From IMG/VR virus record IMGVR_UViG_3300025101_000005, positions 1 to 55,708 of that record: a stretch of DNA of 55,708 bases; one strand, written 5' to 3'. A model generated the notes under the pieces. That model saw only the letters and a list, made by a program, of their open reading frames with translations. It was not told the DNA's origin and did not search any database. Shown one piece after another: positions 14,319 to 51,671 of this stretch. Each line of letters starts with the position of its first letter. Position 1 is the stretch's first letter. The stretch comes from a virus. Made by a program: the position numbers and the translations under genes.

Positions 14319-14321
14319 TAA

Positions 14322-14522: not shown

Positions 14523-14554
14523 GGATGACAAGTACATAGTTTATAACATATCAT
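14523..14554 (+). promoter_or_regulatory. Possible degenerate GGACGAC-type promoter (capsid gene)
   Basis: GGATGAC at 14523-14529, overlapping the stop TAG of the previous gene, then 19 bases to TATCAT at 14549-14554. One base differs from the core GGACGAC and the spacing is one longer than in the better copies. The major capsid gene follows at 14674 after an untranslated stretch of about 120 bases that also holds TAAAAT near 14636. Suggestive only. Confidence 0.3.
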
Positions 14555-14673
14555 ACTAATAACACACAAAGTTGCGCTACGGCTCAATGTGTTAAAGAGT
14601 TTATGCGATGGTTAATTTCCGTAATGACTCGACTGTAAAATAACCGTAACTAAATGCTATAAGGAGGTAAATT

Positions 14674-15867: not shown

Positions 15868-15870
15868 TTA

Positions 15871-15901
15871 GGACGACCTTACAGTTCGATTGAGGCATAG
15901 T
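15871..15901 (+). promoter_or_regulatory. GGACGAC-type promoter 2 (behind capsid gene)
   Basis: GGACGAC at 15871-15877, 18 bases, then CATAGT at 15896-15901. It starts four bases after the capsid stop. Its expected start point near 15908 lies inside the left arm of the terminator hairpin at 15899-15926, so messages starting here would lack the left arm and escape termination. Confidence 0.5.
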
Positions 15902-15926
15902 AAGGGGGCAATAATGCCCCCTTACT
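15899..15926 (+). terminator. Intrinsic terminator after major capsid gene
   Basis: Perfect 12-bp stem (AGTAAGGGGGCA with its complement) and ATAA loop, followed by TTTTAT. It would stop most messages leaving the capsid gene and so set the capsid to downstream tail protein ratio. It overlaps promoter 2. Confidence 0.88.
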
Positions 15927-15943
15927 TTTATCAAGAGGTTAAT

Positions 15944-16246
15944 ATGACAGAGAAAAAAGTTAGAGCTAGAACGAAAAAAGGTCATTACAAATCTGATGAC
16001 CCGTCTACACCAGATGTAAACGAGGCTTTCGTTCAGGAAGAGCCAAAAAAAGCTTCTGAGCCAACAATAGTTTGGTTTGAAAGCAGACAACCAGAAGCCA
16101 GCATGTTTGATGTAGCTGGTTTGCGTTCAATTAGACGATACTCAGACAATCATTTAGAATGGAAAGTAATGTCAGATGACGTTGCTAGGTTTGAGAAAGA
16201 CCACTTTATTATGAATGGAAGGGTACGTAGGAAGGTTGGAAGCTAA
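15944..16246 (+). CDS. Small hypothetical protein after capsid gene
   Basis: 100 residues from ATG 15944; AAGAGG upstream supports this over the in-frame ATG at 15890, which lies in the terminator. Basic N-terminus (TEKKVRARTKKGHYK), acidic middle and a C-terminal domain (TIVWFESRQPEASMFDVAGLRSI) ending RVRRKVGS. It may be a head-completion or decoration factor since it lies between the capsid and adaptor genes; no family recognised. TAATG overlap with the adaptor. Confidence 0.6.
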   Translation: MTEKKVRARTKKGHYKSDDPSTPDVNEAFVQEEPKKASEPTIVWFESRQPEASMFDVAGLRSIRRYSDNHLEWKVMSDDVARFEKDHFIMNGRVRRKVGS

Positions 16247-16785
16247 TGCCAACAGTTACAACTGATACCGCTACTGAAACAAGCAACACTAATCCTCACA
16301 TACGTGAGAAAAACTCTCCCCTTGAGAGTCTAATATTTCAGGCGCTAAGACGTTACGGCGATTTTAGCCCTGGAACATTAGATGGGGATGTAGGCTTGAT
16401 GTTCCTTGAGTTTGCAAACATGGTTGTTGACGATATACGTATGCACCCATACGCACCGTCAACCACTACCACCGCAACATCTGGTGACACAACAACCACC
16501 ACAACAACAGTAAATGGCATAGATTATTATGAATCTTTGCAAGACGTTCGTGAGATTGACGATATTATCATAGTCCAAGGATTACTTTATCATTACGCTT
16601 TGCAACAAGGCAGTGAAAAAGTGTCCGTGTATTTACCAACATACAACACAACCCTTAATAGGCAGTTGTGGAGACAGAAGAATGGCAATACAAAGATACG
16701 TATGACTGTTGTGGATGACGGCACAAACAAAGGAAACATTAATAAAGGAAAAACAAATACAGTAAATGGAACGGTCACCTACTAA
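16246..16785 (+). CDS. Head-tail adaptor (gp11/gp4-like)
   Basis: 179 residues. Residues about 25-70 (ESLIFQALRRYGDFSPGTLDGDVGLMFLEFANMVVDDIRM) form the helical bundle typical of podovirus adaptors such as T7 gp11 and P22 gp4, which bind the portal and connect it to the nozzle. A Thr-rich loop (about 75-92) and a second helix pair follow; the C-terminus is flexible and Asn/Lys-rich. Position between capsid and nozzle genes fits. TAATG coupling with both neighbours. Confidence 0.7.
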   Translation: MPTVTTDTATETSNTNPHIREKNSPLESLIFQALRRYGDFSPGTLDGDVGLMFLEFANMVVDDIRMHPYAPSTTTTATSGDTTTTTTTVNGIDYYESLQDVREIDDIIIVQGLLYHYALQQGSEKVSVYLPTYNTTLNRQLWRQKNGNTKIRMTVVDDGTNKGNINKGKTNTVNGTVTY

Positions 16786-18296
16786 TGTCCAGCACTATCA
16801 AGTCTCCAAGTGGGGTAAAAACCAAGGTATTTGCTTACGAGAACTTTCAAGGTCTTGATACATCTCGTGACATAACCTCTTTAGATACTGGTAAGGAGCA
16901 ACACCTAAACCAGATTGTTAATGGCACGGCAGACTGGCGTGGGCAAATAGTTCGTGACGCATCAGTTGTATTTAGAAAAGGTGAGTTCAAAGTAAATCAC
17001 ATTCGCTTCTTTGGTAAGGACGAAGCTTTATGGGTAGAGCAAACAGGCTCTGGTCTTAACTTTAAGTCTGACAGAGACCACGAACTACTAGACGTACACC
17101 CAACAGCAGCAATAGTTTCTACTACAGTATTCAACCAATCAGTTCAGTTGGCTGCAAGAGCAAGGCCAATGTACCGATATGACGGCGTAAATTTTACAAG
17201 AAACCAATCACCGTCAATAAACAATTTGCAACCAGGGTTTCTTACGTCTGTGCAAAGACGTCTTGTAATTGCTGGAATCCCAGGTAGAGAAACGCAAGTA
17301 CACTTAAGTCGTGTAGACCAAGACGAGATATTTCCTGAAGACGAAGACCCAGCATCAACAAACGTCTTGCGAGCTGGATTTATAGACATTGCAAACTTGC
17401 TTGGAACAGCTGACCAAATAACTGGTCTTGGCTCATTCGAGCAAAACAGATTGGCAGTATTTACTGCTGACCGAGCCATCATATTTAAAATAGACCCAAG
17501 TATAGATAACTGGCTTGTTGATGATAATGCAAACATCAACATTGGCTGTGCATCTCACAATAGCATTGTAAACGCTGGAACAGACCTGTTGTTCTGCTCA
17601 AGGTCTGGCATACATTCAATTAAACGTTCAGAAGACAACGGTATATTGGTTTTCTCATACAGTCTTTCAGATAAAATTGATATTTTATACAGAGAGCTAT
17701 TTGAATCTGTAGAAGACCCAGAGCAGATTAGCGCCGTTTTTGACCAAGACACAGCACAATACCATTTGTTTTTCCCACAAGCTGGTGGGTTTTTATGTAC
17801 AAGACTTACTTTATCTATGAACCCAGAAGGTGGTCAACCACAACCAAAGTTTAGTACAGGAACCTTTTTAAATTCTAGGTGTGGTGCGTTTCTTAACGGG
17901 AAACTTTTGTTTGGTACAACTGGTGGTGTTTTTGAGTTATTAAAGGTAGAAGAGGTTAAGGATAATTCTATCACTCCAGAACTAACAGTGACGACACCGC
18001 TTTTGTGGCATGGTAGTTTAGAGGATACAAAAGAAACATCGAGCATAATTTTGCAGATGGCTGGTAAAGGAAAAGTATCTGTAGAAGCTCAAGACGACAA
18101 AGGAAGGCTTATTGGCACAATGTTTATGGAAGTAGATGACACATCGGACGACAACTACTTTCAAGATGTGCCATTATCAAGGCAATATGAAAGAAAATGG
18201 CAACATAGGTACAGAGCAGCCCAGTATAAGTTTAAAACTGAAGGGGGTGACGGATTGCTTAGACTTATTGGTTTTGCAGTAGTAGTGAGGACATAA
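16785..18296 (+). CDS. Tail nozzle (tubular protein B-like)
   Basis: 503 residues. It opens with YENFQGLDTSRDITSLDTG, the type of N-terminal segment seen in beta-propeller nozzle proteins, and continues as repeated beta blades to about residue 400 (RLVIAGIPGRETQVHLSR, RLAVFTADRAIIFKI, GIHSIKRSEDNGILVF, GKLLFGTTGGVFEL) before a C-terminal beta domain. It would form the distal tail tube of a short tail, downstream of the adaptor. It is flanked by adaptor and fibre genes and is TAATG-coupled to both. Confidence 0.75.
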   Translation: MSSTIKSPSGVKTKVFAYENFQGLDTSRDITSLDTGKEQHLNQIVNGTADWRGQIVRDASVVFRKGEFKVNHIRFFGKDEALWVEQTGSGLNFKSDRDHELLDVHPTAAIVSTTVFNQSVQLAARARPMYRYDGVNFTRNQSPSINNLQPGFLTSVQRRLVIAGIPGRETQVHLSRVDQDEIFPEDEDPASTNVLRAGFIDIANLLGTADQITGLGSFEQNRLAVFTADRAIIFKIDPSIDNWLVDDNANINIGCASHNSIVNAGTDLLFCSRSGIHSIKRSEDNGILVFSYSLSDKIDILYRELFESVEDPEQISAVFDQDTAQYHLFFPQAGGFLCTRLTLSMNPEGGQPQPKFSTGTFLNSRCGAFLNGKLLFGTTGGVFELLKVEEVKDNSITPELTVTTPLLWHGSLEDTKETSSIILQMAGKGKVSVEAQDDKGRLIGTMFMEVDDTSDDNYFQDVPLSRQYERKWQHRYRAAQYKFKTEGGDGLLRLIGFAVVVRT

Positions 18297-19858
18297 TGGC
18301 AAGAATTAGACAACAGTTTCCGCAGAACTACGGCTCTTCTGGAAACATAAATACAGAATTTGAGAATTTATTTCGCTACTTAAATGCAGCAGAACTAGGC
18401 GATAATACTCTCGGTGAATTGTTACAAACAATTTTTAGTAGTACGGGCGAATGGCAAGGCCCAATCGAGTTCAGAAAAGATGCAAGTGGTGACATCCAAT
18501 ACAGGGTCGGAACATACGCAGACGACACAACTGGTTACATAACACTTGTTTCGGCAGCTGAACTACGTGGCGCATCAGGCGCATCTGTTGGTGAAATTGG
18601 GGCTCCAATTATTCACTCAAGACAAGACACAGTAATATCTGGCACTTCAACAACAGTCATTGACTATGCTCACTCAGCTACAGACGAACTTCTTGTATAT
18701 GTAAACGGCATCCTGAAAAGAACAGGAGCTTCATTCGACTATGTTAGCAGCCCAACAGCTGGTACTAGCAGTAATGGAGCGGTTACGTTTAACAGTGCTT
18801 TAGCTAATGCTGATGTTGTTTCTATATACAAGATTAGGTCAACAGCCATAACAGGATTTACAAGGTCAGACACTGTAACAACAGGAAACCAAGCTGTGTT
18901 TGCTTTTGTTCACGACTCAACAGCAAGGCTACAAGTTTATAAGAATGGTATCTTAATGCGTGAAGGTGGTGCGAATGACTACACCACATCATCAACGACA
19001 AATACTGTTACATTCAACTCATCTGTTGCATCAGGAAACACTGTAACAATTATTACAGTTGAGAACACATCTGTACAAGCCGTAACAGGACACATGTTTG
19101 AACAAGACTTTGTTCACACAGATAGTGGTCTTATACAACTGGCAAAAATTAGAATAGACAACAATGCTATTGCCCAAGCAAAAGTAAATGGTTTGTCATC
19201 AGCTCTTACTGCAAAAGCGAAACTTACAGTTTCTAACTCTACACCATCATCCCCAGCAACTGGTGATTTGTTTCTTGATACATCGCAAACACCAAACCAG
19301 TTGAAGTTCTTTGATGGCACGCAGTTCTTAAAGACGTCTCCTGAATCATCTCTCCCGACCTTTACATCAGCTAACGCAAGTCAGTTTGTAAAGGTAAATG
19401 GTACAGGGACGGCTCTTGAGTATGGAACAGTCGACCTTTCCTCCGTTGTTCCAGTAACTCAAAAAGGTGCAGCAAACGGTGTGGCGTCTCTCGACTCAAC
19501 TGGTAGGTTGCCTTCCACACAACTTCCTACCGTTCTTTCTACTGACAGTTTTTTTACTCAAGTAGGAACAGCTGCAAACCAAACATACGGCGTAAAAAGA
19601 ATATTTAAACAAAAGATTAGAATAGACGGCATAGCAGTAAGAACCACATCAGGTACTTGTAGTGTGCAAATATCTGTAGATGGTGTTGGTTTGGGTAGCA
19701 CACTTAGCGCCAGCTCTACGCCTTCTGAAACAGCATTAGGAACACCGATTGAAATAGATGCTTCTGTTTCATCAAAGAAAATAGAATTTATTGTAACCAA
19801 CAATTCTTCAGCGAGTGTGTTAGAAGTAACTATGGCTGTAAGTGTGATTGCGAGTTAA
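18296..19858 (+). CDS. Tail fibre/tailspike-like protein 2
   Basis: 520 residues. The N-terminal anchor (residues 1-82) carries IEFRKDASGDIQYRVGTY...GY, aligned residue for residue with the anchor of the fibre at 4594. Two beta modules follow, each with a LLVYVNGILKRTG-type strand (residues about 105-180 and 190-255) like the MPYxG domains. Then come a collagen-like-free linker with TPSSPATGDLFLDTSQTPNQLKFFDGTQF pattern and a C-terminal beta head. Likely binds the nozzle and contacts the host. Coupled to the nozzle gene. Confidence 0.75.
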   Translation: MARIRQQFPQNYGSSGNINTEFENLFRYLNAAELGDNTLGELLQTIFSSTGEWQGPIEFRKDASGDIQYRVGTYADDTTGYITLVSAAELRGASGASVGEIGAPIIHSRQDTVISGTSTTVIDYAHSATDELLVYVNGILKRTGASFDYVSSPTAGTSSNGAVTFNSALANADVVSIYKIRSTAITGFTRSDTVTTGNQAVFAFVHDSTARLQVYKNGILMREGGANDYTTSSTTNTVTFNSSVASGNTVTIITVENTSVQAVTGHMFEQDFVHTDSGLIQLAKIRIDNNAIAQAKVNGLSSALTAKAKLTVSNSTPSSPATGDLFLDTSQTPNQLKFFDGTQFLKTSPESSLPTFTSANASQFVKVNGTGTALEYGTVDLSSVVPVTQKGAANGVASLDSTGRLPSTQLPTVLSTDSFFTQVGTAANQTYGVKRIFKQKIRIDGIAVRTTSGTCSVQISVDGVGLGSTLSASSTPSETALGTPIEIDASVSSKKIEFIVTNNSSASVLEVTMAVSVIAS

Positions 19859-19863
19859 TATGT

Positions 19864-20292
19864 ATGATAAAGGTAATAACGCATGATAATGAAAGAATTT
19901 CAAAATGGGCTAGTAAGCACCTTGAAGATATTACTTGGAACAGCCCTCAATGTTTTGGATTTGAACTCAACGACAAACTTATCGGTGCAGTCATCTTTAG
20001 CGAGTGGACTAAGAACGATATTCACGTCAGTGTTGTATCGACCAATGCTCGTATGTGGCAAAAGCGTATACTCCATATTCTCTTCCACTATACGTGGGTT
20101 ACTTGCGGTTGTATTAGGATGTCTGCGTTGGCTAAAGAATCAAATAAAAAATCTCGTAGACTTCTTGAGGCGCTTGGTTTCAAGGAAGAAGGACGACTAC
20201 GTAACTATCACGGCAGCGAAGATGGAGTCGTCTACGGTATCCTCAAAGAAGAATCCGAAAGATGGTATAAAACGCAAGAGAGGGAGGCCTAA
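19864..20292 (+). CDS. GNAT-family N-acetyltransferase-like protein
   Basis: 142 residues. The order fits a compact GNAT: beta strands FGFELNDKLIGAVIFSEW, a long helix, then RMSALAKESNKKSRRLLEALGFKEEGRLRNYHG, whose N-K-x-S-R-R-L-L-E-x-L-G-F-K-x-E-G pattern is the typical acetyl-CoA side of the fold. Such genes are common among podovirus structural genes and may acetylate a phage or host protein; the substrate is unknown. ATG at 19864 follows closely on the fibre stop. Confidence 0.72.
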   Translation: MIKVITHDNERISKWASKHLEDITWNSPQCFGFELNDKLIGAVIFSEWTKNDIHVSVVSTNARMWQKRILHILFHYTWVTCGCIRMSALAKESNKKSRRLLEALGFKEEGRLRNYHGSEDGVVYGILKEESERWYKTQEREA

Positions 20293-20297
20293 AAAAA

Positions 20298-22172
20298 ATG
20301 TCTAAAGGCGGAAGTTCACCAGCACCACCTGATTACACAGCTGAAAAAAGCCAAATCAGGAAGGACACAGAAAAGAAATACGGCGAGCAAGCTGAAGCTT
20401 ACAACACTGCCGTAGATACATTTAACACGGCACTAGGCGGTTTTCAAAGCCAGTACGACAATCTTTCGAGTGCGCTTTCTGGAGCAAATGTATCTAATTT
20501 GTATGATGACCCTACGACGACAGATGTAAACGAGAACATCTTTGATGTGTACTCCCCACAGATAAGTGACCTCGCTACTGCTTTAAGTGGTCTTGATACA
20601 GATATAGACAAGCCAATATTTGAGTCATCTGTTGGCTCAGAGTATGGGCCTATTGGTATTACAAACATTCCAGACCTAAACAAGTTTTCTACAACTGATT
20701 TTGATACTCTCTCATCAAACATTAGTGGTCTTTCTGATACTCTTAATCAGTTAAAAGCAGACAGAGCAGCAGAAGAACAACGTATTACAGACTTTGGTCA
20801 AAGCTTGAACCAAGGTTTAGGTGGCATGGGTGTATCATTAGGTCAGTTAGGAATTTCAGACCTTGCATCTATGAATCAGCTAGAAAAACAGTTGTCAGAC
20901 CTTAACTTGCAAAAGCAAGGGTTCTCGTCTGACATTATGGGTCAGTTTATGCCAGGGGGTTTTTCTAACTTCCAAAATCAATACGACACACTAACCGCTG
21001 GCCTTTCAGACCTTAGAGGTAGAAGGCAAACAGAGCTTGATAGAATCGGCACATTTGGCGACACACTTTATACTGACGTTGATAGCTACTTTGACAGGCT
21101 CGATAACCTTGGAATCGCAGATGAATCTGGCATCGGTTCTCTTATTGATGACATCGAAGATAGACAAAGACAGGCTGGAAGATTCTCGTCTGAACTTGGG
21201 TTTGACTTTGGTAATCAGCTAGGCGAGCTACAAGACGTTCTAGGTGATGTTAAAGACCTACAAAGCGAAAGAGTTGCAGAGCTTGCACGTTTAGAAAACG
21301 CAAAAGCAAATTTCTTATCTCAGGCTGGTAACGTTGAGCAAGCTGCTGAAGGTGGCAATATGTTCAGCGCTTCTATTCTCGATAATATTGATGACCAAAT
21401 ACGTGACCTTAAAAATGAAATTTCTGGCTTCTCATCTGAATTACCATTTGATTTCTCAGGAGCTACAGGCTCTATTGCAGACGCTGAAACTGCGTTGGCT
21501 GGTTTACAGGGCGAAAGAACAACCGCACTAGACGACATTCTTTCAAGAGTGCAAACAGCTGGAACGGGTATTGGAGACATTGCTCTATCAGACGAAGACG
21601 CCATAACTGGCAGACAAACAGACTTACAAAAGCTTCAGCAAGAGCTTGCTAAGTTTTCTGGTGGTAGAGTTGGTAACATAGGTGGTGAGATAACTGCGGG
21701 CCTCGACCAAGTAGATGCTCGTCTTGCAGACTTAGCAACCAAGCGTTCAGAGATTGAGACAGCAGCGCAACAACTTGTTGAAGACATTAACAACGCATCT
21801 TTTTATGGTGTTGATGACCTTACTGGTTCTCAAACAGCGTTTGACCAACAGAAAGCGCAAGTTGATTTATTTAACGCACAGCAAGCACTAGATGAAATTG
21901 CACAAGCAGAACAAAGGCTACAGTCTGAAAGACAAAGACTCGAAACAGATGCAGAAGCCGTTGCTGCTAGGTCAGGACAAGCACAGCAAGACTTACTTGC
22001 ATCAATAGGGGCATCAGGTGTTCCTGAGTTTCAGAACTTCGCTCAGATAGACCCAATAACCCTAGAGCAATATTTAAATCTATTAGCTCAAGGTGGCGAC
22101 GAAGAAGAGCTGGGAGCATTAGCAAACTTGCCTTCAGCGTTTAGTCAAAACTTAGGGGTTATAAGTGTATAG
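20298..22172 (+). CDS. Large coiled-coil virion-associated protein
   Basis: 624 residues. Short disordered start (MSKGGSSPAPPDYTAEK), then a nearly all-helical protein with a loose repeat of about 70 residues: D-L-x-x-L-x-x-x-R near 235-250, 320-335 and 405-420, each followed by a short GF/FS-containing segment (FSSELGFDFG, FSSELPFDFS). No cysteine-based or enzymatic motif. It stands just before the internal-virion genes and probably belongs with them as a tail or ejection protein. Confidence 0.6.
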   Translation: MSKGGSSPAPPDYTAEKSQIRKDTEKKYGEQAEAYNTAVDTFNTALGGFQSQYDNLSSALSGANVSNLYDDPTTTDVNENIFDVYSPQISDLATALSGLDTDIDKPIFESSVGSEYGPIGITNIPDLNKFSTTDFDTLSSNISGLSDTLNQLKADRAAEEQRITDFGQSLNQGLGGMGVSLGQLGISDLASMNQLEKQLSDLNLQKQGFSSDIMGQFMPGGFSNFQNQYDTLTAGLSDLRGRRQTELDRIGTFGDTLYTDVDSYFDRLDNLGIADESGIGSLIDDIEDRQRQAGRFSSELGFDFGNQLGELQDVLGDVKDLQSERVAELARLENAKANFLSQAGNVEQAAEGGNMFSASILDNIDDQIRDLKNEISGFSSELPFDFSGATGSIADAETALAGLQGERTTALDDILSRVQTAGTGIGDIALSDEDAITGRQTDLQKLQQELAKFSGGRVGNIGGEITAGLDQVDARLADLATKRSEIETAAQQLVEDINNASFYGVDDLTGSQTAFDQQKAQVDLFNAQQALDEIAQAEQRLQSERQRLETDAEAVAARSGQAQQDLLASIGASGVPEFQNFAQIDPITLEQYLNLLAQGGDEEELGALANLPSAFSQNLGVISV

Positions 22173-22184
22173 GGGCGTTAGCGA

Positions 22185-23726
22185 ATGGCATTTAGCGCAA
22201 TATTAGGATTAGCTGGTAACTTATACGCAGCAAACCAAGCATCAAAGGACGCAGCAGCTGCAAGGTCTTTGCAGATGCAGCAGATGGAATCGCAAAGACA
22301 GTTCCAAAATGCAAACTTTATGCTGGCTCAAGATGCACGTAAAGAGCGTAGAGAGCAAAATCAGTATCTACAACAAATAGAAGCTCTTAACAGGAGGCTT
22401 GCTGGACAGGAACGTGAGTTCCAAATGTCTGAGCTAGACAACTTTAAGAGGGCTTTGTTGAAGGAAAGAGAATCAGACATTGAACGTCAGATTCTTCAGG
22501 ACAAAGAGGCTGCACGTCTTTCTACATTTAGACTAGAACAACTCCTCAAAGGACAGGACATTAGCGAGCAAGAGCGAGCTTTTGCTATACAACAACTTAA
22601 CTTAGCTAGAGCAACGGCATCTGGTGAACGTGATGAAGAGCTAAGACGTTTCTTACAAGACAGAGCAACAGCACAGATAGAGCGTGACTTTCTTGTAAAC
22701 ATGGCTCTTGATGCACAAGATACAGCACGTCTTGAGCGTGCTGACGGTATGGCTGTGCGTGACCAAATACTTAATCAGATACTTGGATTACAAGGCGCTG
22801 TAAACCAAACTGCTTCTCAGCTTGGTTACGTTCCTATTCCAGCAGCTGTATCCGAAGGAGACATACAGTCAGAAATAGACAAGCGAACAGCTCAAAATAT
22901 TTCAGACGTAGACCGAGCAGCAGAAGCGGTAGCTTCTGTAGGCGAGGCTGGTCTTATACGTCAGGGCATGGATGACAGCACAAAAGGCACAGCAGTTCGT
23001 GGTGATATTGCAGCACGTCTTGCAAACGAATATTCAAAAGCCAGAGATTCAGCTTATGACGATGCACTAAAATACATCTCTGGAAGAGAACAAGTCTTCG
23101 GCACAAATGTGGGCAACATTATGGATGCAAGAAGCAAATTGCTTGCAGAGACAGCTGGTGTAGCTGGTACAGGACTACAGCAACTAGCTAATCTTCCAAG
23201 CGCACCATCAGCACTATCAGGATTCAACTATGCACGAATGATACCGTCATCAATCATAAACAGAAACATTAGCAGTGCAAATGATTTTAGGGCTCCTGTT
23301 GCTATTGGCAGTTCAATATACAACAACCCAGCATTGATGACAGCAAACCTAGCCAACTACACCAGACCAACAAGCATGGCTACTAATCAGGGCTTTAATG
23401 TTAAGTCTGGCATATTCAACCCAGCAGCAGTCAGTCTTGATAGCTCAAACTATCTTGGTAACGCTACAAGTATAGGTAACCAAATGATGAGTCAGCTTGG
23501 CTCATACGCTAATAACATGCAAAACAGAGCCCAAACAGCTGGTCAAAACTTTGGTCAGTCTTTTGGTCAGTTTGTAAACGACCAATCACAGGCTGGGGGA
23601 ATGACGTTTCAGTATGATGCAGACGGCAAAGTAATCCCAGGCAGTGGAGTAAAACAAAATGATGGTCTGTTCTACAGCATAGACCAATCATTTAATAAAT
23701 TTTTTAATAACCTGACAGGTTCTTGA
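22185..23726 (+). CDS. Internal virion protein (gp14-like)
   Basis: 513 residues. N-terminus MAFSAILGLAGNLYAANQASKDAAAARS is the small-residue, membrane-active helix seen at the start of T7 gp14-type ejection proteins. It is followed by a long charged helix (about 30-215, many Gln, Arg and Glu), and a Ser/Asn/Gly-rich C-terminal half. Such proteins are ejected ahead of DNA to build a channel through the outer membrane. Order gp14-, gp15-, gp16-like fits the next two genes. Similarity is by architecture, not close sequence. Confidence 0.65.
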   Translation: MAFSAILGLAGNLYAANQASKDAAAARSLQMQQMESQRQFQNANFMLAQDARKERREQNQYLQQIEALNRRLAGQEREFQMSELDNFKRALLKERESDIERQILQDKEAARLSTFRLEQLLKGQDISEQERAFAIQQLNLARATASGERDEELRRFLQDRATAQIERDFLVNMALDAQDTARLERADGMAVRDQILNQILGLQGAVNQTASQLGYVPIPAAVSEGDIQSEIDKRTAQNISDVDRAAEAVASVGEAGLIRQGMDDSTKGTAVRGDIAARLANEYSKARDSAYDDALKYISGREQVFGTNVGNIMDARSKLLAETAGVAGTGLQQLANLPSAPSALSGFNYARMIPSSIINRNISSANDFRAPVAIGSSIYNNPALMTANLANYTRPTSMATNQGFNVKSGIFNPAAVSLDSSNYLGNATSIGNQMMSQLGSYANNMQNRAQTAGQNFGQSFGQFVNDQSQAGGMTFQYDADGKVIPGSGVKQNDGLFYSIDQSFNKFFNNLTGS

Positions 23727-25879: not shown

Positions 25880-28800
25880 ATGGCAAACCAAACAAATTAT
25901 GACGGCATATCATTTACACCACAAGAAGAGGGTGCAACAGACGTAGGATACCTTAACGTATCCCCCGACCAAATCACAAAAGACCCCCGATTTCTTACAG
26001 ATTTGCGTAAATACTACGCAGACTACGGACAGTTTTATTCTACAGACCAAGAATACCTAGACGAATTTTACGAAGACGCTACTTGGCGAGACCTAAACAC
26101 TGCTGGTGCAGTGATTGGTGCTACTTATACTCAAGGCGAGAGTAAAGAAACAAGAGCAAGAGCAAAACGTCTTGAGCAAGCATGGCGTCAGCTCCCAATG
26201 TTTTGGCAAGAAGGTGGTAGAGGCATTGCTTCTGCTGCGCCTGACATTGCTAAAGCTATTATTCTTGACCCAGTAAACCTTATTCCAGTTATTGGTGCGT
26301 ACGGCAAAGCTGCACAAGTAGCAAAAGCAGCGTATCTAGCTGGTCAGACTGGAAAGCAAGCAACAATCGCTGGTGTAAAATCTGGTATTATAGGCGCTGG
26401 TGTTCGAGAAGCTGCAATCGGTGCTGGTGCAGAAGGCGTAATTAGTACAGCAAATCAAATTAGAGATGTACAGCTTGGCTTGGAAGACGAAGTAAGCATT
26501 GGTCGAGTTGCAAAGGATGCAGTTATTGGCGGTGCTACTGGTGGACTTATTGGTGGTGGCGTTCTTGGCCCAGTACCAGCTGTTATTGGTGCAAGACGTG
26601 GAATTAACACAACAGCAGCCCAAACAGACGAGCTTATAAGCAAAGGTCTTACAGGTCAGCAAATCGCAGACACTGTAGCAGCACGTGGCGTTACGGGTTT
26701 TGACGAACTTGTTACAGCATCAAAAGATACAGACGCATTTATCCAGCCAAGTGATGCAGCGACAACAGAAACAACAGCGACCACAGAGTCACCTACAGCT
26801 GAGATTGATGAGAAAATCAATCAAATAAAAACTTTCTATAAAGAAGAGCAAGACCTACTCGATAGTCAGCTAGACGACGGCATAGACCCAGACATTGTTG
26901 CAGAAACAGAAGTAAACCTGAACGAACTGGCTGCACTTAGAGAGTTTGGCGAGAACCTAAAAGCAGAACAAATAGAAATCAGCAAGCTTGAAGCCTCAAA
27001 CAATCCTAACTTAAGGGCTCAAGCTCAGAAGCGTCGTGCAATTTTTGAAAGAAACTACTCAAAGTTTAGACGAGCAACAAGAGGCGGTCTCAATTTATCT
27101 GAAATCAACGAGATTCTTGAGCAGTATAGAGCGAAGCCAAGCGACACTGCTGACGCAAACCCAGTAGAAACAGAAGCAACAACAACTGAAGCTACTGGCG
27201 AAGGCACTACAACCACAGAAGCAGCGCCCGAAGGACGTACAGAAGGCGCAGTTTCAGAAGCTGACACCACTACTACCACTACAACGACTGAAACTGTGCC
27301 AGCAGACGAGACTGTTACAGCCACTGTCGAAGTTAAATTCGATGACATGCCTTTCAGAAACGAAGCGCAGAAAACAAAAATACAATCAAGGTTTAACGAA
27401 GAGTACACCCAAGAACAATTTGAAGCTGATTTTGCAGCTGGCAAAATTTCTGTTGGTAGGGATGGTAAGTTTACACGAGATTCTGTTGGCGAGGTAACAG
27501 CAAGCGCATCATTGGCTAGGGACAGAAAAGCGTTCACAGAAATGATGGATTCAGGCAAAGCTGAACCAAATGAAACTACAGTTACAGCAGAACCAGAAGC
27601 TAAGACAGACGAAATTATTATTGATAGCGAGTCACGAGGAAAAGCTTTAGCAGCTGGTCTTGACCCGAAAGATATTCCAGCAGCAGAGGCATCTGCTTCT
27701 GGTCGTGTTACAAAACGACAAGTTAACAAAGCAATTAATGCTGCAAAGAACAATCCTCCATCTTCTTATGCACAACAAGTGCAAAGGGACTTGGATACGC
27801 TTCTTGCAAACATTGGCAATGACATTGACGTAGACGAGAACAGTCTTAGAGCTTTGATTAGGGTTATGTCCCAGGACAAAGCTTCTTACAAGTCTGACCC
27901 AGACGACATCTTGGCATTGTTTGATGAGTTCAGCAAAAGCGGTATGGCTACAGGCGATAAGGCTTTTACACAAACAGAACTCAAAAAGATACGTCAGCTC
28001 GTTAGAAAGATTCGAGACCCTAAAGATGGCAACCCTGAGTTTTCAAAAGAAACAGCACAGATACTTGCAGAGAGACAAGTTCTCAACGCAAGAGACAATC
28101 CTGAAACGCAGACCGAATCACTGGTTCGCTCTGTTCAAAAGTCTATCGACAACAAAGGCATTTACGAAACAGCTGGTAGAGATACACGTGGACGTATCCA
28201 AGCTATGCTTCGTAAGAGTTCCGTAAACGTAAAACCAAACGAGTTTGCAAAAGAAGAAGCTATTATTAAAGCAACATCTGGCAAGGGGCCAGATGTTGTT
28301 AAGTATATCTCTGGTGGCGAAACAGCTGTAGGCCCAGATGGAAGAAAGATTCGTGTAAAAGCTGGCACTACTTTGTTTGCAGACGGCGTAACAAAGAGAA
28401 GCTTTGTAAGCTACGAATACCTTATGAAAACACGTGGTGTGAACATCGGTAAGAAATCAACAAAGAAAGTTAAACAGCCTACAGACGAAACACCAACAAT
28501 TACTAACGAGGTTGTTCAGAAGCTTGTTGCTGATTTACAGACTGACGGAGATACAGACAAGTTTATTAGAACTGTAAAAGCACTTCAAAAGAAAGGTGCT
28601 GGTGTACCTGAAGAGCCTTCAGCAACTGTAGACGTACCAACAACAAGTGCTGGTAAGAAACTAATTATCCGCTCAAAGAACAATGCTGCTGATGTTCGTA
28701 TGATTAGCCAAAAGCAAATCAGCGAAGGCAAAGGCATAGAAGCTATTATCGGTCAAAAGGGTGGGCCTAACTCAAACCCAGCAAACTGGGATATTAAATA

Positions 28801-31800
28801 CGCACCTTTTGATGCAGAGGCCAAAACGTTACGAGCAAGACAAGAACTATTTGAAAGCTTACCTTCTGGCGAAGTCCCAGGGCAAACACGTGAAGACGTT
28901 ATTAAAAAGCCTATAGACGAAGCTGAGTTTAATGAAAAAGAACTTGAGCTAAGTGAAGCAGAAGTAGCCATTGTAAACAACATCCTTGGTGAGATGGGTT
29001 TCCGTGGAGCCAATGGATTAAAAGGTAACTCGATTACTGGGCAAACCTTAATGGTTATGGAAGATAAGCTTAGTATGGGTGGGTGGCCTGTAAAAGAAAG
29101 TGCAATGGATGCACGTATTGAGCAGATAGCTTTCCTTGAAAACCTTATGGCTAAGATTGCACCTGATGGTGTAAACAAACCTGTTCAAACAAGGTCAGAA
29201 GCAAAGCTGGCTATAGAGAATATCTTTGCTGGTCACTCATCAGAAGAGATTGCTGGAGCCAAAAGACTTATTGATATGCTTGGAGGAGACCCAGACAAGG
29301 CTCCCCTAATCAGAGGCAAGACGACAGATACTATCGGGGCATACAGAGGTTATTACACACAAAGAGATAACGCTGTAACCATGAGAACTGGTCAGGGTCG
29401 TGGCACTGACATGACTCAGCTTACTCCCACAATAAACGTTTTGTACCATGAGGTTGGTCACTGGGCTTACAGAAACATTCTGACACCAGAAGACAGGGCT
29501 CAGTTTTGGAATATAGCCAAGACACACTACAAAGGAGGCAAGATAGATTCTGACTCCATAGATGAATCACGCTACCTTCAGAACCAAACAATTAGCAAAG
29601 AAGGTCGACCTGATTATGTTGTAAGACAACCTACAAGCCCACAAGAATACTTTGCAGAGCAGTTTGAAATGTGGGTCTCTCGAAAGAAAGCCTCACCAGA
29701 TTTGGCTACAGAGAAGTTTTGGCAAAGGATTGCTACGTACGTCAAAGGTATCTTTGACAGATACTACTATGGCGCTGAACTAAACCCAGACCTAGAGCCT
29801 ATCTTCGCTAAAATTATTCCTGATGTACAAGAAGAAGTTACATTCCGTCTTGGTGTAGATGACAAGCCAAAGACTGATTTCGGACGGCACATACAAAAGC
29901 GTCTTGTTCAGTTGCAAATCACTAAAGAAAACCTAGAAAGTGCAATAGGTCGTGATAGCGCAGATGGAATTGTTGAAGCTCACAAAGAGCTGCAACAGCT
30001 TCTGCTAGAGATGGTTCCGAACTCTAAGGTAGTGGCACGAGATGGTGCAGAGAACGCTATATTCTCTCCACTAAGAAAAGGTGCAGCTGGTAGAAAAGGT
30101 ATGGTCAAGATTATTCGTGACCGAATCAATAACTACGACGAAATGATTGATGGCAAACAGTACGGTACAGACGACGGGTTTGACACACGTAACTATGGTG
30201 ACTTTTCAACTCAAGCAGATATGGAGAAAGTAGCTGAACAGTTAAAAGACTTTTACTACAACGGTTATGGTGGAACATTTGTGCCAGCTGAAGGAATCCC
30301 TGGTCGAATAAAAAACCTAGAGGCTTCGTCTACGCAAAACCTTATTGGCATGATTGATAAGCAGCTAAACTCTGTTTATCAAAAGGTTGAAAACACCACT
30401 AATCTTATTGGTGGTTCTAAACCAGACATGGCTAACAAGCCTCCAGTGCGCTCAAACGGCAAGGTTCAGCCAAGCAAAACAGCCAAGAATACAAAGATTA
30501 AGAACGAAAGAATTAAAGAGCAGACCCTTAACGAAGCTGTGCAAGTTGCAAAAACAAAGAAGAATAGCAGAACAAGGGTTACTACAAAGAATACACCAGC
30601 AATCAATCAGAACTCAGCTGAATCAGTCAAGGGCAAGAAGCTTAATGACTTGCTTGCTTTGTTCAGAAAGCATAAAGGCACAGAGTATGGTGACCAAATT
30701 GGTGTAGAGATTGTAAACAAAATCAAATCTCAGCCAGCGCCAGCCAAGCAAGTACGTGTTTCACGTGGAACATTTAAGCTAAGTGGAGATGCTCTTGAGT
30801 CAGAACTGCTAGATGCTCTGCATGTAGGAGACAAAACTAGGGTAGATGAGGCCTATGCTGAAGTCGTGCGACGTGCAAACAACAAGCGTGCGAAGTCACA
30901 AGGTGGTGCAGCTATACTCAAACCTAAGTTTAAAAAGTCAAAGATGGCTATTGCTACAGAGATAGCTCACAACAAAGGTGTCGTTAGAAACGATGGTATA
31001 CCTTCTGCTGCTCGTGCTTCTGTAAGGGAGATGTTGTCTTACATCACTCACAGAGACACAGAGATGCAACAGGTCAGCAGAACTATTGCATACAGAATGA
31101 TGAACATTCTTAACAAATCATCTTATGGAACTATGCAAAACGCCAACAGAATTACTATGGACATCATGGCTCGTCTTGGTAGGGGTGACTATGCTGTAAC
31201 GGGAGATGGTGCGTTTGGAAACTACAACCTCCCAGACTTTAAAAACTTTAGAAATACAGTAAGACGACTGGCTACATCTTTAAACAAAGGCGAAGATATA
31301 GACAGCGGTATTACAGAACTAAACAATATGGTCATTCGTTCTGGAGCATTGCCACAAGACGAGATGGACGTAATAAGGGCTGCTTACGATGCTCTTGATG
31401 ACACAGCAAAAGCTCAAGTTATTGCCAAGCATGGAAGTAAGTACGAAGGTTACTATTCCATGACCAGAGATGAGATGCTGGCTAATGAATGGTTTGGAGA
31501 TTCTATATCACGATACATGAAAGAAGACATAACTCGTGATGACATTCTCGAACTAAGCATATCTGGCGACACACAAAACATAGCCAACATAGCCGTTCTC
31601 GACAGGGCAATAGACAGAACCATAGAGTATTCTTCTTACATTGCTAATGGTCAGATTGGTAGACAAGACGTTAAGAACGCTTACAGACGTGTATCCATGT
31701 ATGGCGACATGTTTGAAGACAATGCTGCTCGACCACTGGCTGGTTCGCTAGAAGGCAAGTACCTTACACACCCAAGCTATGCAGCTGATTATGCACATGA

Positions 31801-34800
31801 CAGTTTCATGTCTATGTCTAAAGACAAGAAGACAAAGATTCTTAGGTTTGTAAAAGGCGGATACGGGTTTGATGAACCCAATCAAATGCCATTGTTCTTT
31901 TATCATGGTACACCACGTGGCAACAAATTAAAGAAATCAAACAATCCAAACGTGCAGATGCGTCCGTCTGATATAGGGTTGTACGGCCCTGGCATTTACG
32001 TAACAGAGAATCCTTTTGTTGCATCACAGATGTATGCAAGGACACCAACGTTCAATGCAATGGTTGATGCAATAGATGAATCAAACCTATCAGACATTAT
32101 TAAAGAAGATTTGCACTGGGATGCTTTTGAACTTACACAAGTAAGACGAGACATTGGAAAGCTAAGACGACAGTATGCGTCTTTGCAGCCAGATGCTTAC
32201 TTGCAGCGGGAGATTGCAGACGAGAGGGTTATCGTTAAAGAACAGCTAGACGAACTCATACAGGTTGAGCGTGGTTTAGTAGCAAACATGAAAAATAATG
32301 GCATGGAGTTTGAGTCTGATGTCTTGCCTACAGTTATAAAACTAGATAGCCCAGCAGACTTCAGAGCAACAAGTATATATCAGTCTGAAGACGACCCGTT
32401 CTTGCAAGCTATCATGGCAAAGTTTAACGAAGAAGACGTGCCAGCAGAGATGATTTCTTCTCTTAGCATGCGTGGCGTAGATGGCAGAGCATTTGGCCCA
32501 AGAAGTGGAGAAGATATTTATAATTCTGTTATTGATGCTTTTGTTCGCTTCGGTGGCAGAAGTAAGACAGGCGCTCAAGCAGAATTTAACAATATGTTAC
32601 AAGAGATGGGATACGATGGTCTCTTAACTACACACAGAAATAGTTTGAATGATGGGGATGAGTTCGTTCAAACTAATAGGACTTATGGCGCTTCAAGTAT
32701 TCAACATGAAACAGCTGTTTTGTTTAACTCAAATCAAATTAAACACATCGACGCAGATGAGTTTAACGATATGGAATATGGCATCTATGCACAAACCACA
32801 GGCAACCCAATTCCAAAAGGTGCTGTAGGAAGCATGGCAAGGGGTCTTCAAGACGGAGACTTTAACAGCATAAATGACATTCCTGTCGGTGAGTTTGGAG
32901 AGCTACTAGAATCAGCTGGCGGTGACCCAAACTATGTTGGCGCTCTTATGTCTCTTATGAGAAAGAGAACGCTTACACCAGCCGAAGAAGAAACAATTAG
33001 AAAGTCTAGCCCTGTTGGGTTCCTTAAATCACAGTCTAACAACTTGAGAGATATGGGTGCTAGGTGGCTAGGCGACTGGTATGAAAACCATTTCCCTAAT
33101 TTGAACCAACGCTTTGCTGGCATATACTTTCCAATACAGAAGGCAATGAGAGGTTTGCCTGACTCTGATGGAAGCCTGAAAAGATATTTTAAGAAGTCTG
33201 TAAATGTTGGGACAACAGTCACAGACAAAATTGCAGAGCAACCAAAATCACATTCTAAGATTGTAAAAGCTTTACGTTACGGAGATGGAAGCCGTCAAGA
33301 AACAGCTCTTACCGACCAAGAACGTGTTGTTTACAGGCAAATTAGAAGTGCCTTTGAAGCAGAAAGACAAGCCATGTTAGATGCTGGCTTGATGGTTGGC
33401 TATAGACAAAACTATTTCCCACAAGTTTGGAACGCAAAAGCTATTGGCAAAGACAGAGATAAGTTTCTCGAAGTTCTACAACGATACTACAACAAAGACG
33501 CACTTCTAAATGGCAGAACACCTACAGACGAAGAAGCAAAAGACTTTGCTGAAGGCGTTATGATGAAGCTTGTAGATGATGAGGATGGTGCAGACGGAAC
33601 ATTTATTCCAGTAAAAGGCACAACAAGGAGCCCAACATTTGACAACGTTGATTACTCAAGGGTTCTTGAGCTTGATAAACCAGAGTTTATTGATGAGCTT
33701 CGAGACCTAGAAAAGTATTTAGAGAGTGACCTCGATGCGTTGCTTGTTAAATACTTTGAGGGTAGCTCAAGAAAGATGACCCATGTGGACGAGCTTGGTA
33801 TTAATAGCCACGCTGTTTACGATTACATGCAAGTAGCTGAAGAAGGTGTGCAAGGAATTGCAAAACTTCTATCAACAAACAAACAGTTTAGGTTTGACAG
33901 GAGTGCAACAAACGCATCTGGCATGATGGAAACATTTACTTTGCAAGACGTAATACGTATGCCGTTTGCAAACAGTGATGCTGAAGCTCTTAGATTTGCA
34001 GAGCAGTTAGTGAACACACATAATGGTGCTGGCGCTCCAGCTGCAAGACAACTTATATATGCGGTAGCTCCAATAGACCCACGCACTGGCAGAATGAACC
34101 AGACATATAAGAGACGTGCTGATGCAATCGTGCATGCTCTTGATGACTTCAAAGGCAAAACAGGAGTGTTGCAACCACAAGACTATGACTTTATCGAGCG
34201 TTCTTTGAAGCCTGTTATGAAGAAGCCTCTAACAACTATGGGAGGCAAAGCAATACAAACAGCCTCAAGGAATTTAAGATTCTTTAACAACATTACGTTG
34301 CTTTCATACACAACTCTTACATCACTTGGTGACTTGGTACTTCCAGTCATTCGTTCTGGAAGTATGAAGTCTTGGATGAAAGGCATGTTCAGCCTGAGAG
34401 ATGCTGAGATGAGGCAAGCGATTAGAAACACAGGCGTTGCTATGGAGAACATCATTCACGAAAGAATGATTCATCTGTATGGCGCACCTGATGGCAAGGC
34501 ATCACATGCTTTCTTCAATGCCACGTTGCTTACAGACTGGACTGATATGAACAGACAGATAGCAGCAGCAACTGGTTACAACTATTTCCAAGCTATGCAG
34601 ACGAAAGCATTTAACAACTTCAAGGAAGGTGTGCCTTACGCACAGCAACCAGCATCATACAAAACTGCACACAGAGCTTTGAAGATGTATGGTCTTGAGA
34701 TGTATTTGCCTGGGGCAGAAGTAAATCCAAAATCTCTTGGCGATAAAAACGTCTTGCAAGACAAGCATGTTAAGATGGCTATGATAAGATTCGCTGATGA

Positions 34801-35467
34801 TTCTATCTTCCAACCTAATGCAGACGACGTGCCAATGTGGGCTCAGACACCAATAGGTGCGCTTGTATTCCAGCTCAAGTCATTCCCGCTGATGATGACA
34901 CGTCTTACAGGACACGTCTTGAAGGAAGCAAACTCTGGAAACTTTGGCCCACTGTTAGCTTTCGCAGCTCTTGGCCCAACATTTGGTATGGGAACTCTAG
35001 CAGCAAAAGATATTTTGCAGTCACGTGGTGGCGATGATGGTAGAAGCCCAGAGACTAGAAAGAGAAACATTCTTAAATCTCTAGGCTATGACAAGAAAGT
35101 ACACGGAGATGAAGACAACTTCCTTGGCTGGTATGTTGAAGGTTTAATTGTAATGGGTGGTCTTGGTCTTATTGGAGACATGATGCACACAGCAGTTGAA
35201 CAAATAGACAACGGAGCTTACGGACGAGAAAGAATGTGGGGAACATTACTCGGCCCAACGTTTGGTCTTGGCAACTCAGCAGCTAATGTTTTTGCTGGTA
35301 TCGGAGCAGAAGAAGGAAGCGGTAAATCAAGACAAGCAGTCAGAGAAATTGCCAACAGGATACCAGTTGTCGGTGGTAACAGAGCAGCTAAAGAAGCTAT
35401 CGTTGATGCAGTTGCTGGTGAATCTGATGACAATTCAAAGTCTTATCTAAGGAGCATCACTAAATAA
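25880..35467 (+). CDS. Giant polyvalent internal virion protein (gp16-like)
   Basis: 3195 residues, one sixth of the genome. Residues about 100-240 have Gly/Ala-rich hydrophobic helices suited to membrane insertion; 290-470 is low-complexity Thr/Glu/Ala. A zincin-like motif HEVGH (residues 1190-1194) with a downstream EYFAEQFEMW glutamate suggests a metalloprotease-like domain. Residues about 2000-2295 resemble an ADP-ribosyltransferase of polyvalent proteins: YHGT (His2009), GPGIYVTEN (Tyr2040) and HETAVLFNSNQI (Glu2277) supply H-Y-E. About 2750-3195 is helical and hydrophobic, like LPD38-type ends. It is presumably ejected into the host with DNA, forming a conduit and carrying enzymes that counter defences. 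SNase and lysis genes follow directly. Confidence 0.8.
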   Translation: MANQTNYDGISFTPQEEGATDVGYLNVSPDQITKDPRFLTDLRKYYADYGQFYSTDQEYLDEFYEDATWRDLNTAGAVIGATYTQGESKETRARAKRLEQAWRQLPMFWQEGGRGIASAAPDIAKAIILDPVNLIPVIGAYGKAAQVAKAAYLAGQTGKQATIAGVKSGIIGAGVREAAIGAGAEGVISTANQIRDVQLGLEDEVSIGRVAKDAVIGGATGGLIGGGVLGPVPAVIGARRGINTTAAQTDELISKGLTGQQIADTVAARGVTGFDELVTASKDTDAFIQPSDAATTETTATTESPTAEIDEKINQIKTFYKEEQDLLDSQLDDGIDPDIVAETEVNLNELAALREFGENLKAEQIEISKLEASNNPNLRAQAQKRRAIFERNYSKFRRATRGGLNLSEINEILEQYRAKPSDTADANPVETEATTTEATGEGTTTTEAAPEGRTEGAVSEADTTTTTTTTETVPADETVTATVEVKFDDMPFRNEAQKTKIQSRFNEEYTQEQFEADFAAGKISVGRDGKFTRDSVGEVTASASLARDRKAFTEMMDSGKAEPNETTVTAEPEAKTDEIIIDSESRGKALAAGLDPKDIPAAEASASGRVTKRQVNKAINAAKNNPPSSYAQQVQRDLDTLLANIGNDIDVDENSLRALIRVMSQDKASYKSDPDDILALFDEFSKSGMATGDKAFTQTELKKIRQLVRKIRDPKDGNPEFSKETAQILAERQVLNARDNPETQTESLVRSVQKSIDNKGIYETAGRDTRGRIQAMLRKSSVNVKPNEFAKEEAIIKATSGKGPDVVKYISGGETAVGPDGRKIRVKAGTTLFADGVTKRSFVSYEYLMKTRGVNIGKKSTKKVKQPTDETPTITNEVVQKLVADLQTDGDTDKFIRTVKALQKKGAGVPEEPSATVDVPTTSAGKKLIIRSKNNAADVRMISQKQISEGKGIEAIIGQKGGPNSNPANWDIKYAPFDAEAKTLRARQELFESLPSGEVPGQTREDVIKKPIDEAEFNEKELELSEAEVAIVNNILGEMGFRGANGLKGNSITGQTLMVMEDKLSMGGWPVKESAMDARIEQIAFLENLMAKIAPDGVNKPVQTRSEAKLAIENIFAGHSSEEIAGAKRLIDMLGGDPDKAPLIRGKTTDTIGAYRGYYTQRDNAVTMRTGQGRGTDMTQLTPTINVLYHEVGHWAYRNILTPEDRAQFWNIAKTHYKGGKIDSDSIDESRYLQNQTISKEGRPDYVVRQPTSPQEYFAEQFEMWVSRKKASPDLATEKFWQRIATYVKGIFDRYYYGAELNPDLEPIFAKIIPDVQEEVTFRLGVDDKPKTDFGRHIQKRLVQLQITKENLESAIGRDSADGIVEAHKELQQLLLEMVPNSKVVARDGAENAIFSPLRKGAAGRKGMVKIIRDRINNYDEMIDGKQYGTDDGFDTRNYGDFSTQADMEKVAEQLKDFYYNGYGGTFVPAEGIPGRIKNLEASSTQNLIGMIDKQLNSVYQKVENTTNLIGGSKPDMANKPPVRSNGKVQPSKTAKNTKIKNERIKEQTLNEAVQVAKTKKNSRTRVTTKNTPAINQNSAESVKGKKLNDLLALFRKHKGTEYGDQIGVEIVNKIKSQPAPAKQVRVSRGTFKLSGDALESELLDALHVGDKTRVDEAYAEVVRRANNKRAKSQGGAAILKPKFKKSKMAIATEIAHNKGVVRNDGIPSAARASVREMLSYITHRDTEMQQVSRTIAYRMMNILNKSSYGTMQNANRITMDIMARLGRGDYAVTGDGAFGNYNLPDFKNFRNTVRRLATSLNKGEDIDSGITELNNMVIRSGALPQDEMDVIRAAYDALDDTAKAQVIAKHGSKYEGYYSMTRDEMLANEWFGDSISRYMKEDITRDDILELSISGDTQNIANIAVLDRAIDRTIEYSSYIANGQIGRQDVKNAYRRVSMYGDMFEDNAARPLAGSLEGKYLTHPSYAADYAHDSFMSMSKDKKTKILRFVKGGYGFDEPNQMPLFFYHGTPRGNKLKKSNNPNVQMRPSDIGLYGPGIYVTENPFVASQMYARTPTFNAMVDAIDESNLSDIIKEDLHWDAFELTQVRRDIGKLRRQYASLQPDAYLQREIADERVIVKEQLDELIQVERGLVANMKNNGMEFESDVLPTVIKLDSPADFRATSIYQSEDDPFLQAIMAKFNEEDVPAEMISSLSMRGVDGRAFGPRSGEDIYNSVIDAFVRFGGRSKTGAQAEFNNMLQEMGYDGLLTTHRNSLNDGDEFVQTNRTYGASSIQHETAVLFNSNQIKHIDADEFNDMEYGIYAQTTGNPIPKGAVGSMARGLQDGDFNSINDIPVGEFGELLESAGGDPNYVGALMSLMRKRTLTPAEEETIRKSSPVGFLKSQSNNLRDMGARWLGDWYENHFPNLNQRFAGIYFPIQKAMRGLPDSDGSLKRYFKKSVNVGTTVTDKIAEQPKSHSKIVKALRYGDGSRQETALTDQERVVYRQIRSAFEAERQAMLDAGLMVGYRQNYFPQVWNAKAIGKDRDKFLEVLQRYYNKDALLNGRTPTDEEAKDFAEGVMMKLVDDEDGADGTFIPVKGTTRSPTFDNVDYSRVLELDKPEFIDELRDLEKYLESDLDALLVKYFEGSSRKMTHVDELGINSHAVYDYMQVAEEGVQGIAKLLSTNKQFRFDRSATNASGMMETFTLQDVIRMPFANSDAEALRFAEQLVNTHNGAGAPAARQLIYAVAPIDPRTGRMNQTYKRRADAIVHALDDFKGKTGVLQPQDYDFIERSLKPVMKKPLTTMGGKAIQTASRNLRFFNNITLLSYTTLTSLGDLVLPVIRSGSMKSWMKGMFSLRDAEMRQAIRNTGVAMENIIHERMIHLYGAPDGKASHAFFNATLLTDWTDMNRQIAAATGYNYFQAMQTKAFNNFKEGVPYAQQPASYKTAHRALKMYGLEMYLPGAEVNPKSLGDKNVLQDKHVKMAMIRFADDSIFQPNADDVPMWAQTPIGALVFQLKSFPLMMTRLTGHVLKEANSGNFGPLLAFAALGPTFGMGTLAAKDILQSRGGDDGRSPETRKRNILKSLGYDKKVHGDEDNFLGWYVEGLIVMGGLGLIGDMMHTAVEQIDNGAYGRERMWGTLLGPTFGLGNSAANVFAGIGAEEGSGKSRQAVREIANRIPVVGGNRAAKEAIVDAVAGESDDNSKSYLRSITK

Positions 35468-35850
35468 TGTACGAGTACGCCATAAAAGAAATAACCAAAG
35501 TAGTTGATGGCGATACTGTCGACATGGTGATAGACCTTGGCTTCAGCCTTACAAAGAAAGAACGTGTACGTCTTGCTGGTATCGACGCACCAGAAAGCAG
35601 AACACGTGACCTCGATGAAAAGCAGATGGGGCTCGAAGCAAAAGCATTTCTTACAAGACGTCTTGCTGACGGCGAGCCTTCAGGTCTCAAAGTTAAGACA
35701 GAAAAAGACGGCAAGTATGGTAGAATGTTGGGGTGGATTTACATAGGACAGACGAACTTAAATGAAGAGATGGTCTATCGTGGTTACGCCTGGGAGTATG
35801 ACGGAGGCAAGAAAACAAAAAGCCTAGACGAACTGAAGGCGAAGCGATGA
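35467..35850 (+). CDS. Staphylococcal nuclease-like (thermonuclease) protein
   Basis: 127 residues. The fold signature is plain: VVDGDTVDMVIDLGF (strand 1-2), RVRLAGIDAPESR (calcium and phosphate site), then KYGRMLGWIYI and VYRGYAWEYDGG. Arg39-like and Glu-equivalent residues of the SNase active site are present in RLAGIDAPE and DGKYGR. It would cut DNA or RNA, possibly host nucleic acid, as a small cytoplasmic phage nuclease. TAATG-coupled to the giant gene and ATGA to the next. Confidence 0.85.
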   Translation: MYEYAIKEITKVVDGDTVDMVIDLGFSLTKKERVRLAGIDAPESRTRDLDEKQMGLEAKAFLTRRLADGEPSGLKVKTEKDGKYGRMLGWIYIGQTNLNEEMVYRGYAWEYDGGKKTKSLDELKAKR

Positions 35851-51661: not shown

Positions 51662-51671
51662 GTTTACCTCC

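Follow-up and report, generated by a model that had tools for sequence, protein, structure and literature searches.

Polyvalent proteins, as defined by Iyer et al. 2017 (PMC5512222), unite in a single chain at least two domains whose biochemical activities are unrelated. Giant virion-delivered proteins carrying both a zincin-like metallopeptidase (MPTase) and an ADP-ribosyltransferase (ART) with an H-Y-D site have been a recognised class since 2017, in which the zincin occurs in one to five copies (PMC5512222). The MPTases of polyvalent proteins have a three-stranded sheet, a helix bearing the HExxH motif and a glutamate in the following helix; in the ARTs the active site is formed by a histidine on strand 1, a tyrosine on strand 2 and an aspartate on strand 5 (PMC5512222). 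Among giant phage proteins, a DarB-like protein of 4515 aa was found by mass spectrometry in virions of Burkholderia phage JC1 (PMC9144972), and the virion RNA polymerase (vRNAP) of phage N4, about 3500 residues long, is ejected and has an HExxH domain (PMC12633501).

The nearest named relative of the protein described here belongs to Roseobacter phage CRP-810 (OR671924), with about 38% identity over 89% of a 2873-aa query. The accessible part of the paper on this phage (PMC11288001) describes a new, mostly integrase-bearing phage family of global distribution, linked to Roseobacter and SAR11 hosts, in which a gene annotated as internal virion protein D is common to all subgroups; polyvalent domains of this protein are not mentioned in that part of the paper. 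By synteny and sequence it is the same gene as the one considered here, and it has the same domain set; in CRP-810 the homologous region (positions 13926-23566 of locus L024) is annotated as three overlapping ORFs, whereas the IMG/VR relatives have one intact ORF.

The window, i.e. the whole 55,708-base IMG/VR record that was analysed, contains at 25880-35467 on the plus strand an ORF of 3195 residues which, by ORF call and translation, has no interruption; the first-pass annotation had described it as one gene, and the single-ORF copies present in many related marine phages of IMG/VR agree with this. The product is probably the large ejection protein, or internal virion protein, of a presumably temperate marine podophage of the CRP-810 type, a polyvalent protein encoded in the position of T7 gp16, which would be ejected, possibly cleaved by its own zincin, and equipped with an ART that would act early in infection. 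The bases of this reading are domain homology, conservation of catalytic residues, fold predictions, synteny and purifying selection; packaging, ejection, both enzyme activities, self-processing and a host target are the parts of it that we infer. The features are the following, with the evidence for each.

25880-35467, plus strand: predicted giant internal virion/ejection protein (polyvalent protein; CRP-810-type 'internal virion protein D'); ORF of 3195 aa
20298-25822, plus strand: three upstream genes (624, 513 and 695 aa); gene order, CRP-810 synteny
25979-26569, plus strand: N-terminal domain, aa 34-230, a homologue of internal virion protein D from HTVC019P; hhalign, tblastn, HMM
26222-26599, plus strand: moderately hydrophobic helices rich in Gly and Ala, aa 115-240, possibly membrane-active; composition, hydropathy
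29177-29914, plus strand: zincin-like metallopeptidase domain 1, aa 1100-1345; AlphaFold2 model, BFVD matches
29447-29461, plus strand: HEVGH site, H1190-H1194; conservation in relatives
29645-29647, plus strand: E1256 of the second helix (PQEYFAEQF), predicted as third ligand of the zinc ion; conservation, model helix 195-211
30557-31711, plus strand: zincin-like domain 2, aa 1560-1944, degenerate in this phage; HExxH of relatives, hhalign to domain 1
31313-31327, plus strand: lost HExxH of domain 2 (T1812-E-L-N-N1816); alignment with relatives
31487-31492, plus strand: E1870/W1871 of the domain 2 Glu helix, kept; alignment with relatives
31832-32779, plus strand: ART domain (ART-PolyVal type), aa 1985-2300, in which a long helical insert separates strand 2 from strand 3; PF18760, AlphaFold2, PDB match
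31904-31906, plus strand: H2009, ART strand 1; conserved in 70/70 aligned, model residue 65 in strand 62-67
31997-31999, plus strand: Y2040, ART strand 2; conserved in 69/70, model residue 96 in strand 94-98
32615-32617, plus strand: D2246 (GYDG), where strand 5 begins, predicted as the third residue of the catalytic site; conservation, model residue 302
32708-32710, plus strand: E2277, catalytic Glu of the first-pass annotation, not conserved; alignment of 74
32852-35464, plus strand: C-terminal domain, aa 2325-3195, the most conserved part of the family; hhalign, HMM, PHROG

The giant gene lies in a module whose order is portal, capsid, tail genes, large core genes, giant gene, holin and endolysin. 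On its 5' side are found terminase, portal, tail and major capsid genes and three large genes of no clear family, and on its 3' side a small nuclease-fold gene, a holin with three transmembrane segments and an endolysin. For two of the three large upstream genes no family match was found; gene order and synteny with CRP-810 indicate that all three are, by position, probable partner core/ejection proteins. Pelagiphage HTVC019P has, in its internal virion protein D, a clear homologue of the N-terminal domain (aa 34-230: hhalign probability 99.2, E=1.4e-19, 188 columns; HMM iE=1.5e-54; matched also by tblastn). Thus, the T7 gp16 position proposed at first reading is supported both by gene order and by homology of the N-terminus to an annotated internal virion protein D. 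Delivery into the host, to which the synteny and this homology point, is likely. The N-terminus and the conserved C-terminal domain would then serve packaging in the head core and formation of a channel to the cell, and the exit of the giant protein from the virion would accompany or precede that of the DNA. The N-terminal region is also rich in Gly and Ala, as had been noted before (G+A reaches 50% in stretches of 40 residues that start at about residue 144, the mean being 18%), with Kyte-Doolittle peaks of 1.4-1.5 at aa 122-141 and 214-238; these helices may act on membranes, as had been proposed.

Other genes of the record are worth describing. A tyrosine integrase is encoded at 46935-47921 on the minus strand, and the phage is therefore probably temperate, like other CRP-810-type phages. 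The nuclease-fold gene (35467-35850) is Staphylococcal-nuclease-like (PF00565, E=1e-16) and begins at the stop of the giant gene; this adjacency is seen in close relatives only, and in the large protein of Aeromonas phage phiA008 a domain of the same type is fused to the N-terminus. A GNAT acetyltransferase-like gene, present in CRP-810 too, is located within the structural module (19864-20292). Finally, adjacent genes for a CobT-like VWA protein and a CobS/MoxR-like AAA protein occur at 49712-53504, possibly auxiliary genes of the cobaltochelatase type or a MoxR-VWA pair.

Scans of IMG/VR yielded about 200 homologous loci, many of them overlapping on the same records; in most long ORFs of the relatives the order is N-terminus, linker, zincin 1, domain 2, ART and C-terminus. 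Comparison with two close relatives gave dN/dS values of about 0.02-0.17 in all segments of the giant gene, indicating that the whole chain is under purifying selection. Against the relative L002, dS reaches 0.89 at 29912-30557 (aa 1345-1560) and is 0.2-0.35 elsewhere, which suggests local recombination in this segment. The C-terminal domain retains 51-61% identity between distant members and is shared with the large proteins of phage phiA008 (hhalign E=4e-11; HMM 3e-16) and of Microcystis phage Mae-Yong1326-1 (HMM 1e-7), as well as with structural proteins of the Pseudomonas phage KPP25 type; it also matches PHROG 6958, 'virion structural protein' (E=7e-7). The phiA008 protein has HELGH and a DEWFADQF helix too. 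A scan of genome contigs with the C-terminus returned a single match, on a short contig of a Rhodobacteraceae metagenome bin. The LPD38-like character first attributed to this hydrophobic part has to be abandoned: LPD38 (PF18857) matched neither the window, nor the records of 12 relatives, nor any of 31 C-terminal sequences in hmmscan, while the same search found the JC1 protein, used as positive control, with E=8e-37.

The ART domain was recognised by profile, by conservation and by predicted fold. PF18760 (ART-PolyVal) matches 33 of 43 relatives (best E=1.7e-11), and its curated cut-off of 31.2 bits is exceeded in two of them (40.6 and 46.4 bits); the window slice reaches 27.7 bits, below that cut-off, and Pfam gives a single weak ART match on the window protein itself. 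A sequence search of the whole protein and its slices against the PDB returned nothing useful, and the matches of the ART profile to LSD1 and prefoldin in the PDB search were discarded as coiled-coil noise. The first-pass annotation had proposed structure prediction of 1980-2300 and of 1100-1320, and in both cases the expected topology was observed in models of slightly larger slices, computed with AlphaFold2 from alignments built without the CRP-810 row. For the ART (residues 1945-2315, 42 sequences; pLDDT 87.2, pTM 0.84) the model has strands at 62-67, 94-98, 203-209, 214-217, 303-319 and 323-337.

The same annotation had assigned the site to His2009, Tyr2040 and Glu2277. The ART fold and the first two residues, found in FYHGT and GIYVT contexts, stand, with H2009 invariant and Y2040 replaced in a single sequence among 70 relatives; the glutamate does not. 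Indeed, the E2277 column of the 74-sequence alignment contains E in 21 rows, D in 18, T in 14, K in 6, Q in 5 and others in the rest, whereas at D2246 71 rows have D, the other three having E (2) or Q (1). In the model D2246 (302) is placed just before strand 303-319, the published place of the third residue, and E2277 (333) falls in strand 323-337. Since D2246 is conserved and E2277 is not, and the published site is H-Y-D, the catalytic triad is H2009-Y2040-D2246. The ART is likely to be enzymatically active, and it would transfer ADP-ribose from NAD+ to a host macromolecule before any phage gene is expressed. In the deep relatives L084, L100 and L071 the site reads H-Y-E or H-H-Q; these proteins, together with the deep relatives that lack a detectable ART, are candidates for altered or lost activity.

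The second predicted enzymatic module is a zincin-like domain at aa 1100-1345. Composition predicts 0.02 HExxH motifs in the protein, and the HEVGH at 1190-1194, first noticed as a metalloprotease-like site, is maintained among 76 unique relatives (H1190 in 73, E1191 in 71, H1194 in 70), as is E1256 (70). The AlphaFold2 model of 1060-1353 (47 sequences; pLDDT 80.9, pTM 0.80) begins with a helix, followed by strands 84-89, 98-101 and 106-111, by helix 125-140 with HEVGH at model residues 131-135, and by helix 195-211, where E1256 is residue 197. Model and conserved residues agree with the published layout of polyvalent MPTases (PMC5512222), and a zincin-like domain with a predicted zinc site made of H1190, H1194 and E1256 is well supported. 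In fold searches of this slice the top PDB matches are zinc peptidases, at E values of at least 0.4 and not significant; in BFVD, a collection of predicted viral structures, three significant matches were obtained (E=2.7e-14), each to a phage protein named for a 'large polyvalent protein associated domain'.

A further zincin domain, in tandem with the first and absent from the first-pass annotation, is recognised from sequence comparison at about aa 1560-1944. In 39 aligned relatives this region bears an intact HEIGH or HEVGH followed by an EWFxE helix; the window has T1812 and N1816 in place of the two histidines but retains E1870 and W1871. Alignment of domain 1 with domain 2 by hhalign gave a probability of 87% and E=3.7e-6, with both HExxH motifs and both Glu helices superposed; in control comparisons domain 1 did not match the ART profile at all, and domain 2 matched it only through 18 residues at the shared boundary. 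The HExxH of domain 2 is intact in the majority of divergent relatives, and degenerate in the clade of this phage; CRP-810 has both sites intact (HELAH, HEIGH), whereas the window has lost the second. Among 80 unique C-terminal rows both sites are intact in 34, only site 1 in 29 and only site 2 in 6; site 1 is intact with site 2 unreadable in 7, and in 4 site 1 itself is unreadable. No fully readable protein has lost both, and each has at least one intact HExxH. The tree shows one change of site 1 and six of site 2; the pattern of at least one intact site is then only suggestive, since it relies on a single loss of site 1, and for the same reason a correlated-loss test on the tree has no statistical power. 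A tandem protease/pseudoprotease pair, in which at least one zincin stays active to cut the chain during or after ejection and to free the ART, the live copy differing between lineages, is a speculative proposal and a rather doubtful one.

The degenerate second domain is also relevant to a different explanation, in which the protein has kept its zincin and ART folds chiefly as core structure of the ejectosome, with activity weak or lost, and serves only as a DNA channel or core protein like T7 gp16. Domain 2 is under strong purifying selection (dN/dS 0.035-0.068), so that a dead enzyme domain can be kept for structure; several deep relatives have no detectable ART, and an ART-like fold may belong to a protein of a solved pre-ejectosome. 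However, the catalytic residues are among the most conserved of the protein, with H-Y-D present in 53 of 57 thinned ART-bearing rows and the zincin ligands as frequent as reported above; the D-to-E changes in L084 and L100 retain an acidic residue, and loss of zincin site 1 goes together with an intact site 2. A mainly structural role is considered unlikely.

If the protein is instead an ejected enzyme, as preferred here, the substrate of the zincin has to be considered. The intact domain would cut the giant chain itself, or possibly a host protein. Self-processing is favoured for polyvalent MPTases, with DdrB of P1 as precedent (PMC5512222); it is not a given, because the N4 vRNAP, which has a similar domain, is packaged uncleaved (PMC5512222), and for this protein it is put forward tentatively, at somewhat less than even chances. 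An effector protease directed against the host, for example against a defence or regulatory protein, is listed as an option in the same study, and weak Pfam matches to Peptidase_M91, an effector metallopeptidase family, occur in four members (best E=0.001); given the preference expressed there and the P1 precedent, such a role instead of self-processing seems improbable here. That a giant structural protein has its HExxH and H-Y motifs by chance, as the single weak Pfam match and the zincin slice devoid of significant PDB matches could suggest, is extremely improbable and already contradicted by the aligned sequences, in view of the expected motif number, the residues conserved across dozens of diverged relatives, the PF18760 and BFVD matches and the fold topology.

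Returning to the ejected, polyvalent protein that we favour, comparison with T7 gp16 reveals a likeness of position, after other core genes; conversely, T7 gp16 is devoid of zincin and ART, and its N-terminus is not homologous, the window N-terminus giving no match to it. Residues 615-785 of T7 gp16 align with the C-terminal domain at E=0.0025 and probability 12%, which is only a hint, and Pfam detected no lytic transglycosylase in the window protein. T4 Alt, an ADP-ribosyltransferase that is injected and immediately modifies host proteins, RNA polymerase among them, provides a functional analogy only. It belongs to the R-S-E class of ARTs, a clade separate from the H-Y-D enzymes (PMC5512222).

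A closer structural parallel may exist in another podophage core protein. In the PDB the ART model finds its best match in 9k3a_B, a chain of the 'Cyanophage A4 pre-ejectosome', with E=2.3e-3 and probability 0.99 but a low TM of 0.30 and an rmsd of 18.6 A; the sequence of this chain is identical to that of ORF27 of Anabaena phage A-4L. ORF27 has an ART-like H..Y..D region, as in the window protein, with LYHGT, GSGTYFS and GVDAL following one another in the expected order close to the C-terminal end; these motifs were read from the sequence, of which 1071 residues are resolved in 9k3a_B. It differs in being 1717 aa long, with no HExxH detected and no sequence homology to the window protein outside the ART motifs. 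A structural link between the ART of the giant protein and a solved podophage pre-ejectosome is possible.

The most similar described architecture is that of the vRNAP of Roseovarius Plymouth podovirus 1, a giant virion-linked protein with the same combination of MPTase (HExxH plus Glu) and H-Y-D ART (ART-PolyVal E=2e-8, plus HExxH motifs); no virion RNA polymerase was found in the window protein by Pfam or PHROGs. With zincin(s) and ART, identified by sequence and predicted fold, the window protein has the two unrelated domains that define polyvalent proteins, and it is distinguished from those of Iyer et al. 2017 by an N-terminus like internal virion protein D, by a C-terminal domain of its own and by a tandem zincin pair with one member decaying. 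What is added here is a domain map of the ejection protein of a widespread marine phage family, with a corrected ART site, which shows the residues to be mutated, a tandem live/dead zincin pair and the possible pre-ejectosome link. Should the inference hold, CRP-810-type phages would carry a conserved, ejected ADP-ribosyltransferase and protease acting before phage transcription; the host of CRP-810 is in culture, so that ejection, processing and ART targets are directly testable. In comparison with the known systems, the giant protein is a well-conserved addition to the class of polyvalent proteins, and not a new kind of system.
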